A stretch of DNA of 35,649 nt. Origin: a virus. The notes beneath the pieces were generated by a model, which saw only the letters and a list, made by a program, of their open reading frames with translations, had not been told where the DNA came from and ran no database searches. Positions 11,693-19,582 of this stretch are shown piece after piece. Location: positions 1 through 35,649 of the IMG/VR virus record IMGVR_UViG_3300028925_002971. One strand, 5' to 3'. The position numbers and the translations under genes are program-made. Within the stretch, counting starts at the first letter, position 1. Every line of letters starts with the position of its first letter.

Positions 11693-11721
11693 TTGACTTC
11701 GTGTCAGCCTCATGTTATAAT
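11693..11721 (+). promoter_or_regulatory. Sigma70-type promoter for the SSB gene
   Basis: TTGACT (11693-11698), 17 bases, then TATAAT (11716-11721): 11 of 12 consensus bases at ideal spacing, in the 120-base non-coding gap between polymerase and SSB. Expected transcript start is about 11728, giving a leader of some 50 bases with AGGAGA before the ATG at 11781. This gives SSB its own host-polymerase promoter. Confidence 0.85.
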
Positions 11722-11780
11722 GTTTGTTCTTGTGTAGTAGACAAGGCAGAAACTAAACAGAAACTCTAGGAGAAATTAAA

Positions 11781-12284
11781 ATGACTAACGAATATGCAGA
11801 CCCTATCTTCCTCACTGGTGAAGCTTACTGGGCAAAAATCTTTGAGCCTAATATGATTAACCCGGAGAAGCCTGAGTACACTATTGATGTGTGTAACCTT
11901 GACTCCGACAACATGAAGATTGCGGAGGAAGCTGGTCTCTCTATTAAGAATGTTAGTAACGAAAAGCCAGACGATAAGCGTGGTAATTTTGTCACATTGA
12001 AGCAGTTTACCACTACATTTAAGGGTGATCCCCGTACTATTAGAGTTGTGGATGCGAAGCGTAATCCCTTCCCCTCTAATACCCTTATTGGAAACGGGTC
12101 TCAGGTATGTGCTAAAGCCTTCCCGAAGGCATGGACCTTTGGTGGTAAAGAAGGAGTTAAGGGATATCTTGATTCCTTGCAGGTACGTCAGCTTGTTGAG
12201 TATGCAAGCAACGGCCCTGATTTTGATGTGGTCCCTGATGGGTATACGAATAACGAGGCTGTAGACTTCCCCCTAGCTTCGTAA
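11781..12284 (+). CDS. Single-stranded DNA-binding protein, T7 gp2.5-like (167 aa)
   Basis: Coats single-stranded DNA at the fork. Recognised by the phage SSB layout: GEAYWAKIFEPNM near the N-terminus, then NPEKPEYTIDVCNLD, GDPRTIRVVDAKRNPF, LIGNGSQVCAKAFP, and GVKGYLDSLQVRQLVEY. The tail reads DFDVVPDGYTNNE and then AVDFPLAS, mildly acidic. In T7 gp2.5 the acidic tail contacts polymerase and helicase. The same tail peptide occurs in the early protein at 1891-2304. The gene has its own promoter and leader upstream and a terminator-like hairpin 12 bases downstream, consistent with high, separate expression. Confidence 0.9.
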   Translation: MTNEYADPIFLTGEAYWAKIFEPNMINPEKPEYTIDVCNLDSDNMKIAEEAGLSIKNVSNEKPDDKRGNFVTLKQFTTTFKGDPRTIRVVDAKRNPFPSNTLIGNGSQVCAKAFPKAWTFGGKEGVKGYLDSLQVRQLVEYASNGPDFDVVPDGYTNNEAVDFPLAS

Positions 12285-12288
12285 TTTG

Positions 12289-12338
12289 AAAGGAGAAGAG
12301 GGGCATCTATTAATTTAGATGTCCCTCTAATTTTTATG
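12289..12338 (+). promoter_or_regulatory. Split ribosome-binding site bridged by a hairpin (exonuclease gene)
   Basis: AAAGGAG (12289-12295) is a strong Shine-Dalgarno sequence, but the ATG it would serve (12336) is 40 bases away, and nothing suitable lies closer. The 32-base hairpin 12297-12328 fills the space. When it is folded, only 8 bases separate AAAGGAG from ATG. T4 gene 25 is known to use such a hairpin-bridged site. Confidence 0.6.
12297..12335 (+). terminator. Rho-independent terminator after the SSB gene
   Basis: AGAGGGGCATCT (12297-12308) pairs with AGATGTCCCTCT (12317-12328) over 12 pairs including one G-T wobble, with an 8-base loop, followed by AATTTTT. This is a convincing intrinsic terminator that would end SSB transcripts. 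It directly abuts the next start codon, so read-through RNA keeps the hairpin in the leader. Confidence 0.85.
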
Positions 12339-13196
12339 ACAAAAACAATTGATACTTTAGTTGAAGATATATATAATCTATTCACCTATAATCCTATTGA
12401 TATGGATGAAGCCGAGGTAGACAAGCACATTGATACCTTTGGAGAGATGTTGAAGACACACGTTAAAGAATTCATGAATGAAACTCCAAGGGATCGTAGG
12501 GGTCTACGGCTATCGGCTATTGGTAAGCCAAACAGACAGTTATGGTATGACTCAAGAGATGAAACACTTGAAGATTATATTGAACCAAGCACAAGAATTA
12601 AATTCTTATACGGGTATATCCTAGAAGAACTCTTATTGCTATGTGCTACTGTCTCAGGACACGAAGTCACCGACCAGCAGCGAGAGCTAACCCTAGAGGG
12701 CGTTAAGGGGCATCAAGATTCCCTTATTGATGGTGTTCTTATTGATTGTAAGAGCGCATCAGGCAGGGGCTTTGATAAGTTTCAGCGCAATGATCTAGTG
12801 AACGACGATCCCTTTGGATACATCGCACAGATTTCTGCTTATGCAGAAGCGAATGGCCTAGATGAAGCTGGCTTCTTGGTAATTGATAAATCAACTGGGA
12901 AGATATGTCTTTCAAAAATACATGCAATGGATATGATTAATGCTGGAGAACGTGTTAAAGAACTTAAAAAAGTTGTGGCCGCAGAAGCTGCGCTCCCTGA
13001 TAGGTGCTACTCTGCTATTCCTGATGGTAAGTCTGGTAACATGCGTCTTCCTATTGGTTGTGTGTATTGTCGCCATAATCGAGAATGTTGGAAAGACGCA
13101 AATCAAGGCCAAGGACTACGTACATTTAAATATGCGTCGGGTGAAAGACATCTTGTCCAAGTAAACAAGACACCTGATGTTGAAGAGGTTATATAA
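12336..13196 (+). CDS. Cas4-like PD-(D/E)XK exonuclease with Fe-S cysteine cluster (286 aa)
   Basis: A probable 5'-3' exonuclease. The active site is seen in GHQDSLIDGVLIDCKSAS: H126, D128, D137 and K139 match the Cas4/RecB nuclease motifs. The C-terminal cysteines C224, C242, C245 and C251 have the spacing C...C-x2-C-x5-C that holds a 4Fe-4S cluster in Cas4 and AddB. It occupies the place where T7 encodes its gp6 exonuclease, so it likely serves recombination, primer removal or host DNA breakdown. Its ATG stands right at the T tract of the SSB terminator, with its ribosome site upstream of the hairpin. Confidence 0.85.
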   Translation: MTKTIDTLVEDIYNLFTYNPIDMDEAEVDKHIDTFGEMLKTHVKEFMNETPRDRRGLRLSAIGKPNRQLWYDSRDETLEDYIEPSTRIKFLYGYILEELLLLCATVSGHEVTDQQRELTLEGVKGHQDSLIDGVLIDCKSASGRGFDKFQRNDLVNDDPFGYIAQISAYAEANGLDEAGFLVIDKSTGKICLSKIHAMDMINAGERVKELKKVVAAEAALPDRCYSAIPDGKSGNMRLPIGCVYCRHNRECWKDANQGQGLRTFKYASGERHLVQVNKTPDVEEVI

Positions 13197-13199
13197 TAA

Positions 13200-13598
13200 A
13201 TGCATTGGGAGTACGATAAGGACAACAACATCCACAAATACTTTGGATTTGTTTACTGCATTACAAACAAGAAAACAAAGAAAGCCTACATAGGGTGTAA
13301 GCAGTACTGGTCTTTCCGTAAGGGTAAGAAGAAGTCTGAATCCAACTGGAAAGTATATGCAGGTTCTAGTCGTCACCTCAAGGAAGACATTGATAAACAC
13401 GGCAAAGACAATTTTAGATTTGAAATTCTAGGAGAGTTTAAAAACAAGAGAAGTTTGAAGTATTATGAGTGTTACCATCAGGTGACACGACACGTACTAA
13501 CGGCGACACTGGAAGGCACAGACGAGCCAGCCTACTACAATAACTGGATAGGCGGTAAGTTCTACAGGCCGGTACAGGATTTTAATACAGATGGATGA
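13200..13598 (+). CDS. GIY-YIG-type endonuclease (132 aa)
   Basis: A 132-residue protein with GFVY (residues 16-19) and YIG (30-32), separated by the usual 10 residues, followed by a basic segment (SFRKGKKKSESNWKVY). This is the N-terminal core of the GIY-YIG nuclease fold; no added DNA-binding domain is evident. The place next to the exonuclease is where T7 carries its Holliday-junction resolvase gp3, so a junction or repair role is more likely than a homing one; that is inference. GAGG lies 11 bases before the ATG. It overlaps the next gene by 8 bases. Confidence 0.75.
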   Translation: MHWEYDKDNNIHKYFGFVYCITNKKTKKAYIGCKQYWSFRKGKKKSESNWKVYAGSSRHLKEDIDKHGKDNFRFEILGEFKNKRSLKYYECYHQVTRHVLTATLEGTDEPAYYNNWIGGKFYRPVQDFNTDG

Positions 13599-15956: not shown

Positions 15957-16388
15957 ATGGCAAATGTCGCAATGGAAACATTACGTAACTATACAATTGG
16001 GTTTGATTCTTTGTTTAAAGAACTAGAAGCCATCACAGACCAGCTTAACAGAGGAGGCGACAAGTATCCTCCACACGGCATCGCTAAGATTGACGAAGAT
16101 AATTTTAAATTGCGTCTTGCTGTAGCAGGATTTGCAAAGGAAGATTTACAACTTACTGTTGAAGATGGATTGGTTGCCATCAAAGGACATAGAGATACAA
16201 AGGATAGAAGTGAAAATCTATATAACTCTAACTATCATGGTATTGCAGAAAGAGATTTTCTAAAGAAGTTTCAACTGAGTGATTATATGGAAGTTGTTGG
16301 TTCTGAACTCGTTAATGGTATTTTAACTATATCTATTCAGCGAGAGGTTCCGAAGGAAAAGCAACCCAAGACTATTACAATTAACTAA
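15957..16388 (+). CDS. Small heat shock protein, Hsp20/IbpA family (143 aa)
   Basis: An ATP-independent holding chaperone. The N-terminal IGFDSLFKEL, then DKYPPHGIAKIDEDNFKLRL, the alpha-crystallin core LAVAGFAKEDLQLTVEDG, and the tail NGILTISIQREVP match IbpA-type Hsp20 proteins. Length is usual for the family. Marine phages carry Hsp20 genes fairly often; a role in folding or protecting virion or replication proteins during infection is the usual assumption. It has its own promoter, a good AAGGAGAAAATATT ribosome site and a hairpin right after it, so it forms a separate expression unit between nrdJ and the glycosyltransferase genes. Confidence 0.93.
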   Translation: MANVAMETLRNYTIGFDSLFKELEAITDQLNRGGDKYPPHGIAKIDEDNFKLRLAVAGFAKEDLQLTVEDGLVAIKGHRDTKDRSENLYNSNYHGIAERDFLKKFQLSDYMEVVGSELVNGILTISIQREVPKEKQPKTITIN

Positions 16389-16390
16389 TG

Positions 16391-16440
16391 AGAGGATGTA
16401 GAGAGGGGGCCATAGCTTCCTCTCTACAACTATTTATATG
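16391..16440 (+). promoter_or_regulatory. Split ribosome-binding site bridged by a hairpin (glycosyltransferase gene)
   Basis: AGAGGA (16391-16396) lies 41 bases before ATG 16438 with the hairpin 16397-16428 in between. Folded, the gap is about 10 bases. A second purine run inside the stem (16401-16409) would be hidden by pairing. The arrangement copies that at 12289-12338. Confidence 0.55.
16397..16437 (+). terminator. Terminator-like hairpin after the Hsp20 gene
   Basis: TGTAGAGAGG (16397-16406) pairs perfectly with CCTCTCTACA (16419-16428); G-T, G-T and G-C pairs extend the stem to 13, with a 6-base loop. It is followed by ACTATTTAT, a poor T tract, so termination is probably partial. It could instead mainly stabilise the Hsp20 message. 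Confidence 0.65.
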
Positions 16441-17217
16441 TCTAAGAAATTACCTTTTACTGTGTACATAGGATACGACCCACGCGAACAGACAGCTTAT
16501 GATGTATGTAAGTTTGCTATTGAGCGCACGGCATCAGAAGCTGTAAGAATTATCCCTATCAAGCGCCCCACTGTTGAGCGCATGGGCTTGTTCTATCGGC
16601 AGTTTGACATTATTGATGACCAGTTCATTGATCTGAAAGATGGTCGCCCTTTCTCTACTGATTTTAGTTTTACGAGGTTCCTTGTACCAGCACTTAATAT
16701 GTATGAGGGGTGGGCCTTATACATGGATTGTGATATGTACATGCGTACAGATGTTAATGATTTATTTGAGGAATATACTACCCAAGAGTACTCAGACTTC
16801 TATCCTTTGTTTTGTGTTCAGCATGACTATGCTCCTCCAGAAACAGTTAAGATGGACGGTAAATTACAGGGGAACTATTTTAGAAAGAACTGGTCTAGCT
16901 TTGTGTTATGGAACTGTGCTCACCCTGCACATAAGAAGCTAACGATTAATGAGATCAATTCAAACAGTGGGTCTTGGCTACATAAGTTTGGCTGGCTCTC
17001 TGATAAGACATCTGATATTGGAAAGATCACAGAGGACTGGAACTGGCTTGATGGACATTCAGATGAGAAGCTAGAAGCCAAGAACGTCCACTTCACAACT
17101 GGTGGTCCTTGGTTTAAAGATTGGAAGTGCCAGAGAACTATTGATGCTCAGTACGCTGCCGAATGGAACATGGACTATTCTTATTTACTCTTACACGGAC
17201 TGACTAATGAAATATAA
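16438..17217 (+). CDS. Glycosyltransferase-like protein, GT8/GT-A fold type (259 aa)
   Basis: A probable GT-A glycosyltransferase. It opens with FTVYIGYDPREQTAYDVC, as in GT8-type enzymes, and has YMDCDMYMRTDVNDLF with a DxD motif at residues 96-98 (D-C-D), which binds the metal and nucleotide-sugar. NVHFTTGGPWFKDW near the end fits the family's closing His-Gly region. There is no signal peptide or membrane span, so it acts in the cytoplasm. It overlaps by 11 bases with the next gene, another transferase. Acceptor unknown: virion protein, phage DNA or host surface sugar are all possible. Confidence 0.8.
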   Translation: MSKKLPFTVYIGYDPREQTAYDVCKFAIERTASEAVRIIPIKRPTVERMGLFYRQFDIIDDQFIDLKDGRPFSTDFSFTRFLVPALNMYEGWALYMDCDMYMRTDVNDLFEEYTTQEYSDFYPLFCVQHDYAPPETVKMDGKLQGNYFRKNWSSFVLWNCAHPAHKKLTINEINSNSGSWLHKFGWLSDKTSDIGKITEDWNWLDGHSDEKLEAKNVHFTTGGPWFKDWKCQRTIDAQYAAEWNMDYSYLLLHGLTNEI

Positions 17218-19582
17218 AGTTGTAACTTGTTTTAATGAAGAGACATTAAATCAAACAGGGAATGTAGTATTAAATCAGTTTAAAGATTTATGGTCGCCAG
17301 ACATTGAGTTTCATTGTTATCATTATCAGATAGATATTAGTAAGTATTCTCTACCTACAGGGTCTAATATTTTTTATCATGACATTGAAAAGATGGAAGA
17401 GTATGCTGCCTTCAGTGAGGAGTATGCCGAGAACGACGGAACTGAGGGAGGACAGATACCATATCAGGACATCCTCGACCCTCATAAATACTTTCCCCGT
17501 GTCTTGGCACTATCAGAATGTGCATTCACCAATGCTGATGCATGGATGATCTGGATTGATCCTGATGTTATTGTAAAGAAAAAGATTACAGTTACAGAAC
17601 TTGATAAGCTTTTCCCTGAAGGAAACGAAAAGATTGACATGATGTGTCTGGAGGACTCAGGTCATTTTGTTGCATACAATCTTGCCAGAGAGACAGCGGT
17701 TGAACTGCTTGGAGATTTCAGAGGAGCATTTATTTCTGGAGAGTTTCTAAATTATCGTGAGTGGCACGATAGCTTTATCCTAAATAGATTACGTACCATT
17801 TATGTTGCACACGGTATGCGCGTACATGAGATTACCAATAAGGTATCATATGTCCATGATCTTTTTGCGTGTCTTAGAGATAGAAAGAATGTTGCATTAA
17901 GGGATAAAGAAGGCAATAGAATTATTCAGTTATCTGATACTGAAACATCCCCAGACATTCTCCCCAATAGATATCGCCAGCTTGCAGACTTAATTAGATT
18001 TTATAAGCCAAGCACAATACTAGAGACAGGTACATGGAATGCAGGACGTGCTATTGAAATGGCGTTAGCTGCTTTTGATAGCACCGACACTGTACACTAT
18101 ACTGGTTTTGATTTGTTTGAGGATGCTACCTCAGAGACAGATGCTCTAGAATTTAATGCTAAACCTCATAACACATTTAAGGCTGTAGAGGCTAGGCTTA
18201 TTGAGTTTCAAGAACACATTAAAAAGAAAGAAGATAAGAAATTTTCTTTTGAATTAGTTAAGGGAAATGTACGAGACACCCTGCCTAAGTTCATGGACAA
18301 GAGTAAAAAGGATTACGAGCTTGCTCTTATTGGTAGCGGCAACAGTAAAGAAACTGTAGAGATTGAATACCAGTCTTTAAAAGATATTTCAATTGTAATC
18401 ATGGACCATTACTTTACAGAGGATGATGACGACAAGCTCCCAGCAGAGGAAGCACAGGGGGTTAAGAAAGTTTTCGACGCCGTTGCTACACAAAAACTAG
18501 AGGAGAAGCCTAGCGTAGAGGATGGGTGGACTGTCTTCGATGAGAAGAGTACAATTAGAAAGTATATCCTTCCTTCTGGAGATAAGGTAGCTGATGGTGG
18601 ACATACCCACTTGACAGTTCTTTTAAGCAATGAAGAGACAGAAGAAGTCCCAGATTCTTTGAAGCGTGTTCCTATCATTGTCCATCCTAGAGATTCAGTT
18701 TCTAGAGAATATATTACCAATAATATTCAATCCAATATGAAACTTATTGGAGATAATAAATGGGTTACTAAACATCCTGCCAACAGAGAGATGGGTATAA
18801 TTGTTTCTGCTGGACCCTATTTAGATTATGATGCGTTGAAAGAGTTTATAAAGGACAATCCTCATGCTAAAATCCTTACAGTTAAACATGCATATCCACA
18901 CTTACTTGCTCATGGTATAAAGCCTTGGGGCTGTGTTGTCTTAGACCCTCGCCCCATCACAGGCAAGAGTACACATAATATTATACGTAAAGATTTATTT
19001 AAAAATCTTGACAAGAATACTAAATTCTTTGTTGCTTCCATGACCGATCCTTCTGTCACTGAGTTACTTGTAGAGAACAAAGCTTCTATCTATGGATGGC
19101 ATGCCTATACTGATTCCCTACGACAGGAAAAAGAACAAGGCACAGAGATTCATAATCAACAGGTTAAAGTAGAAGATAATCTAGGCATCCCAAAAGGGGC
19201 CACGCTTATTACGGGCGGTACTTGTGCAGCCATGCGAGCTATCGGAATCTTTCATACGATGGGATTTAGAAACATCCATCTATGGGGCTTCGACTGCTGT
19301 AGAGATGCGCCTAGCGATGAAGAGAAGACAGAGACTACAGGTGATGTAGAAGGAGGAGAAGTTCCTAAGCCTAAGTATATTGAGGTAAGTGTGGAAGATA
19401 TAACTTACTGGACTACAGGTGAGCTTCTGGCTATGGCGCAGGACTGTGAGAAAGTATTTGCAGATCAGGGCATGGATGGTGTGTTAGAATTTCACGGAGA
19501 AGATACAATGGTTGCTGATCTTTGGAAAATAAATAACAGCAGGGACAAGCGCCCTCAATTTAAGGACTACTACAATGACTGA
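17207..19582 (+). CDS. Three-domain protein: glycosyltransferase-like, methyltransferase-like and DUF115/MptE-like (791 aa)
   Basis: Residues 1 to about 230 look like a second GT-A transferase (VVTCFNEETLN; WIDPDVIV with D-x-D near 117-119). Residues about 255-430 look like a class I SAM methyltransferase (STILETGTWNAGRAIEMALA, VHYTGFDLF). In that domain the usual late D-G-x-H-S motif reads IGSGNS, so activity is doubtful. Residues about 525-700 match DUF115/MptE-like: GIIVSAGPYLD, HGIKPWGCVVLDPRP, ITGGTCAAMRAIGIF and LWGFDCC. DUF115 proteins include Maf factors for flagellin glycosylation. The fusion suggests coordinated glycan building, but the target is unknown. The weak ribosome site implies coupling to the preceding gene. 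Confidence 0.75.
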   Translation: MKYKVVTCFNEETLNQTGNVVLNQFKDLWSPDIEFHCYHYQIDISKYSLPTGSNIFYHDIEKMEEYAAFSEEYAENDGTEGGQIPYQDILDPHKYFPRVLALSECAFTNADAWMIWIDPDVIVKKKITVTELDKLFPEGNEKIDMMCLEDSGHFVAYNLARETAVELLGDFRGAFISGEFLNYREWHDSFILNRLRTIYVAHGMRVHEITNKVSYVHDLFACLRDRKNVALRDKEGNRIIQLSDTETSPDILPNRYRQLADLIRFYKPSTILETGTWNAGRAIEMALAAFDSTDTVHYTGFDLFEDATSETDALEFNAKPHNTFKAVEARLIEFQEHIKKKEDKKFSFELVKGNVRDTLPKFMDKSKKDYELALIGSGNSKETVEIEYQSLKDISIVIMDHYFTEDDDDKLPAEEAQGVKKVFDAVATQKLEEKPSVEDGWTVFDEKSTIRKYILPSGDKVADGGHTHLTVLLSNEETEEVPDSLKRVPIIVHPRDSVSREYITNNIQSNMKLIGDNKWVTKHPANREMGIIVSAGPYLDYDALKEFIKDNPHAKILTVKHAYPHLLAHGIKPWGCVVLDPRPITGKSTHNIIRKDLFKNLDKNTKFFVASMTDPSVTELLVENKASIYGWHAYTDSLRQEKEQGTEIHNQQVKVEDNLGIPKGATLITGGTCAAMRAIGIFHTMGFRNIHLWGFDCCRDAPSDEEKTETTGDVEGGEVPKPKYIEVSVEDITYWTTGELLAMAQDCEKVFADQGMDGVLEFHGEDTMVADLWKINNSRDKRPQFKDYYND

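Follow-up and report, generated by a model that had tools for sequence, protein, structure and literature searches.

How does translation of a phage exonuclease gene start when its only Shine-Dalgarno (SD) sequence lies far upstream of the start codon? This question is raised by the junction between ssb and the exonuclease gene in the DNA that we analyzed, a whole virus record of 35,649 bases that is called the window in the following. The window contains genes for a T7-type polymerase, a primase-helicase, ssb, the exonuclease, a GIY-YIG endonuclease and ribonucleotide reductase. The features of the junction, and of a second site with the same layout, are listed in Table 1.

Table 1. Positions of the features at the ssb-exonuclease junction and at the second site downstream of the Hsp20-like gene.
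Feature	Position	Strand	Basis
Sigma-70-like promoter of ssb, TTGACT-17-TATAAT, with TG preceding the -10	11693..11721	+	sequence
ssb, gp2.5-like ssDNA-binding protein gene; stop TAA 12282-12284	11781..12284	+	PHROG 112, E 6e-13
Exonuclease SD, AAAGGAG	12289..12295	+	predicted anti-SD duplex of about -7 to -9 kcal/mol
Predicted bridging hairpin with 13 bp and a loop of 6 nt; terminator-like as well	12297..12328	+	fold; stem compensation in relatives
AATTTTT, U-tract and single-stranded spacer up to the start codon	12329..12335	+	sequence
Cas4-domain exonuclease gene, ATG 12336	12336..13196	+	PHROG 1990, E 1.5e-42; first start codon in frame
Hsp20-like gene, upstream of the second site	15957..16388	+	PHROG 432, E 1e-30
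SD-like core, within GAGAGGA	16391..16395	+	distal SD -5.8 kcal/mol, folded gap 11
Second predicted bridging hairpin, 14 bp	16397..16428	+	z -6.05
Spacer ACTATTTAT preceding ATG 16438	16429..16437	+	sequence
Second-site gene, PHROG 28018, no assigned function	16438..17217	+	PHROG match

An earlier note on this DNA, made from the letters alone, had named AAAGGAG as the sole plausible ribosome site for ATG 12336, 40 bases away, with a 12-bp hairpin plus AATTTTT in the gap that reduces the spacing to 8 bases when folded. The coordinates of the SD proved to be exact and no second SD is present near ATG 12336; the energy of a proximal SD is 0 at the exonuclease. The position of the hairpin was also correct, but the stem has 13 pairs if the terminal A-U and a single G-U are included. 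By direct reading of the sequence 12297-12309 pairs with 12316-12328, and 12310-12315 form the loop. Recalculation of the gap gave 40 nt in the linear RNA and again 8 nt with the hairpin folded. The predicted structure is stable: the region 12280-12360 folds with -24.3 kcal/mol (z -4.5), a value that none of 200 shuffled sequences equaled, and the z score for 12284-12338 is -5.5. The ensemble prediction has part of the SD pairing with the U-tract; the unpaired probability of the SD is about 0.35. All SD energies refer to the usual anti-SD, which was assumed for the host.

A start of the exonuclease further upstream was considered and rejected, since the open frame of the window contains no ATG, GTG or TTG upstream of ATG 12336 and an in-frame codon of this kind is also missing in 79 of 109 relatives. 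A three-codon ATG frame within the stem (ATGTCCCTCTAA, about 12319) was likewise discarded; it is absent from the other groups of relatives. Most window genes without overlap with the preceding gene have an SD 4-9 nt upstream. Among the 52 plausible window genes, only the exonuclease gene and the gene at 16438 combine the lack of a proximal SD with a fold near -25 kcal/mol in the 70 nt upstream. No Rfam family matched the hairpin at gathering score, the matches in the window being two tRNAs only; a local Rfam search returned a single chance match (E 0.24), far below its cutoff. Directly 3' of the exonuclease gene, at 13200-13598, lies the GIY-YIG (SegE-like, PF19835) endonuclease gene. The same slot is occupied in the cultured relatives SIO1, P12053L and CRP-13 by a gene annotated as endonuclease; for SIO1 and CRP-13 the annotation is T7 endonuclease I-like.

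The relatives of the locus were collected by searching viral contigs with the exonuclease. As some contigs recurred in several scans, each 75-nt upstream sequence was counted only once, which left 111 distinct upstream regions. Hairpins were located without reference to the SD and were searched for only 3' of the ssb stop. The order ssb stop, SD, hairpin, ATG was found in 110 of the 111 regions, including L058, which the stop-codon rule of the script excluded and whose layout was confirmed by eye. The only exception is L072, in which another gene lies upstream, the hairpin is missing and the SD is proximal. The gene order ssb-exonuclease is constant throughout the clade. The 89 distinct hairpins have energies from -15 to -35 kcal/mol, and the sequences of their stems and loops are fully divergent. 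They are 24-76 nt long, apart from one larger insertion (L064), and the enlarged ones still bridge the gap (64 nt in L076, 76 nt in L043, about 95 nt in L064). The insertion in L064 (3999-4105) comprises roughly 75 nt within the hairpin loop and leaves both arms intact.

The spacing is retained as well. In linear coordinates the SD affinity of the relatives is zero at gaps 0-9. After removal of the hairpin it peaks at a gap of 8-10, with a mean of -3.1 at a folded gap of 9, and most folded gaps are 8-14 nt; some relatives have a weak SD of the GTGAG type. Ordinary genes in the same contigs peak at a gap of 6-7, so the folded spacing is near normal yet about 3 nt longer. The distance from the end of the stem to the ATG is 7-14 nt with a median of 9 in 91 distinct cases, a count that leaves out rows whose fold extended into the SD or the spacer. 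Furthermore, the stems show compensatory changes. In group A2 every one of the 121 cells is paired (100%) and four pairs have changed on both sides; the covariation score of this group was reached by none of 500 shuffles and by no slid register. Changes on both sides of the stem also occur in groups A3, A4 and A5; in A3 alone the covariation is weak against shuffles. In G009, a near relative of the window, a C-G pair has become U-A (GGGGCATCTA/TAGATGTCCC to GGGGTATCTA/TAGATACCCC). On this comparative evidence it is the pairing, rather than the sequence of the stem, that is conserved.

A second bridged case, which the earlier note did not contain, is present in the window at 16391-16440, 3' of hsp20. 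Relatives of this site have GGAAAGGA or GGAGAGGA in place of GAGAGGA, and in L097 the stem carries a compensated change from U-A to C-G. The hairpin clade (L082-L099, L117) has GAGAGGA or GGAAAGGA, then the hairpin, ACTATTTAT and the ATG. In the hairpin-less relatives (L101-L115, L118, L119), TAAGGAGACTCTATG or a closely similar sequence immediately adjoins the hsp20 stop; their SD is 5-6 nt from the ATG and aligns with the SD of the hairpin clade. As aligned, the second-site hairpin occupies precisely the point at which SD and ATG adjoin in the relatives that lack it. When 665 genes of 11 contigs were scanned for this layout, hairpins below -16 kcal/mol were confined to the exonuclease and hsp20-downstream sites, while layouts with weaker hairpins occurred in about the number expected from shuffles. 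A relative of the 16438 gene in L100 (upstream of 1501) is preceded by a promoter-like sequence of its own and by a proximal SD, with neither hsp20 nor a hairpin. Directly 3' of the second bridged gene, 17207-19582 encodes a protein of 791 aa whose residues 504-698 match an MptE-like (PF01973) domain; this protein has no PHROG match.

Judged by its sequence, the hairpin in this phage and in most relatives is also built as an intrinsic terminator: the GC-rich stem at 12297-12328 is followed by the U-tract of AATTTTT, an arrangement that several relatives lack. A promoter that matches at 10 or more of 12 positions is present 5' of ssb in 77 of the 89 distinct regions compared, against 4% of shuffles. 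The U-tract together with this strong promoter makes a short ssb transcript likely. The ssb leader that carries the promoter (11693-11780 in the window, and in relatives L019-L064) contains small inverted repeats that are conserved in the relatives (GGGGAATGATCCCC; GGCTGCAATGGTGCAG; TAGTAGACAA), and it may be a regulatory leader of ssb.

Together, these data suggest, with a probability of roughly 0.83, that the element is a hairpin-bridged (split) ribosome-binding site of the type known from T4 genes 25 and 38. The SD is too distant in the linear RNA and none exists at normal distance; the predicted stable structure in between would restore a functional spacing; and arrangement and pairing are retained among relatives. 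The positions, the stability, the conserved layout, the compensatory changes and the presence of normal SDs wherever the hairpin is absent all point to this reading. The earlier note had proposed that a single element both bridges the SD to the start and terminates ssb, with T4 gene 25 as a known hairpin-bridged case and a comparison of related phages for stem and spacing as a check. The precedent could be confirmed (PMC3014915), and the relatives keep stem and spacing while sequence, loop size and U-tract change. The bridging part is well supported by the layout of the relatives and by the natural exceptions, which carry a normally spaced SD; the terminating part is plausible here and in most relatives, but is not constant in the lineage.

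In the mechanism that we propose, the 30S subunit would bind AAAGGAG just 3' of the ssb stop, and the GC-rich hairpin would remain folded outside the mRNA channel. With the hairpin folded, its base joins the SD to the spacer, and 8 unpaired nt instead of 40 would precede the AUG. The spacer, 7-14 nt in the relatives, would then thread the channel and ATG 12336 would reach the P site. By analogy with T4 genes 25 and 38, we infer that initiation takes place on the folded RNA. The hairpin would also end most transcripts from the strong ssb promoter, and the minority that reads through would carry a working exonuclease start; with lower confidence, we consider that such termination probably occurs and that the read-through is used for the exonuclease. 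A more general proposal, to which we give an even chance, is that intrinsic terminators serve as structural spacers of ribosome-binding sites (terminator-RBS fusions) at two genes in one genome, and that gain and loss of the U-tract in evolution tunes the ssb-exonuclease polarity while downstream translation is undisturbed.

The hairpin could be only an intrinsic terminator or 3' stabilizer of ssb, in which case the purines would be an A-tract and the exonuclease would be started without an SD. The strong promoter of ssb fits this account, as do the ability of the SD purines to pair with the U-tract and the presence of a U-tract (5 or more T in 8) in about 80% of the variants. However, variants without a U-tract, namely L021 (CACTCCA), L023, L027 and L031 (TATCTCAC), L037, L041, L203 and L213, retain the hairpin, the purine motif and the distance to the ATG. 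When presence of the U-tract is mapped onto the exonuclease tree, it changes at least 9 times while the bridge is constant; in eight rows of this mapping the fold entered the tail, which was then counted by eye. Because the U-tract comes and goes while hairpin and SD persist, termination alone is insufficient. At this site 9 of 10 stems have an SD-like motif on their 5' side, whereas among the other terminator-like hairpins of these contigs only 2 of 36 do (p 5e-7; full contigs were compared, with a duplicate-free list compiled by hand). The narrow range of stem-to-ATG distances, and the fact that most non-coupled genes of the phage use an SD, also argue against this explanation, which we regard as unlikely.

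Translational coupling is a very unlikely source of the whole arrangement. Ribosomes that finish ssb would reinitiate at ATG 12336 and the SD would merely retain them; the SD is indeed only 4 nt 3' of the ssb stop, a terminating ribosome would presumably cover the SD and not the stem, and the gene order is constant in the clade. Yet the distance from stop to ATG is 47-96 nt in most relatives, longer than the distances over which most studies find coupling to be efficient, and structure immediately 3' of the stop codon reduces it (PMC12548453). Coupled translation of ssb could still contribute, but it leaves the retention of a stable stem with constant flanks unexplained. A repressive switch, in which the hairpin and pairing between SD and spacer hide the SD until a ligand, a protein (e.g. 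the ssb protein) or temperature opens it, is highly improbable. The minimum-energy fold does lengthen the stem by pairing the SD purines with the spacer, and the median unpaired probability of the SD is 0.25. However, native spacers pair with the SD (mean -4.3 kcal/mol) little better than swapped (-3.9) or shuffled ones (-3.9), so the pairing looks compositional, and sequestration of the SD as a designed lock was rejected. There is also no Rfam match, and since the loop and stem sequences are unconserved, no common protein site is visible. According to the fold model, SD-spacer pairing may lower the efficiency of initiation, and it seems not to be selected beyond composition.

A DNA search of named phages gave no match, and in a protein search all relatives among them were below 47% identity. 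The Roseobacter phages CRP-13 and CRP-9 likewise have ssb followed by a Cas4-like exonuclease, with a G+C-rich possible hairpin in the gap; they differ in having a conventional SD (AGGAGG and AAGGA, respectively) between the G+C-rich stretch and the ATG. The fold of the CRP-13 gap is no better than shuffles (z -0.7). In CRP-13 (MW514247.1, our L125) the annotated TTG start of the exonuclease overlaps the G+C-rich intergenic stretch at 1465-1498; in comparison with homologues, ATG 1498 behind AGGAGG is the better fitting start. The hairpin was not found in the distant isolates SIO1, P12053L, ICBM1, CRP-4, HMO-2011 and Pelagibacter phages, and in several distant isolates the exonuclease start abuts or overlaps the upstream gene. 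Within the collections searched, the device is thus specific to one uncultivated clade, which is probably marine judging from its cultured relatives.

At one gene, the locus provides more than 100 natural versions that have diverged; hairpin-less controls exist too, and the same genomes contain a second gene of this kind. The folded SD-AUG geometry becomes testable in this way, with 7-14 nt from stem to AUG, a folded gap of mostly 8-14 nt and free loop size. The element also shows a way in which one hairpin could limit transcription yet allow translation. Gene callers that score the SD at a fixed distance may miss hairpin-bridged starts.

The element resembles a rho-independent terminator in that ssb, which has a strong promoter, is followed by a GC-rich stem and a U-rich run. 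Unlike such terminators, some of the hairpins in the relatives have no U-tract, and the stem has an SD on its 5' side and a start codon 7-14 nt after it. In the literature searched, T4 genes 25 and 38 are the only precedents for hairpin-bridged ribosome sites; reporter and probing work on both genes stands behind the split-site model (PMC3014915). In gene 38 a hairpin shortens the SD-AUG spacing from 22 to 5 nt; this structure is shorter than the one described here, and the review describes no terminator role for it (PMC3014915). In gene 25 folding shortens the spacing from 27 to 11 nt (PMC3014915). The gene 25 site, a split (accommodated) ribosome-binding site, resembles the present one in being intercistronic, with the SD 5' and the AUG 3' of the hairpin, and in its distribution, since close relatives retain it and distant ones lack it (PMC3014915). 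We claim no sequence kinship between the two. The present site differs in its larger change of spacing (40 to 8 nt), in its longer, more stable and GC-rich stem, in the terminator-like U-tract that mostly accompanies it, and in being represented by over 100 divergent versions.
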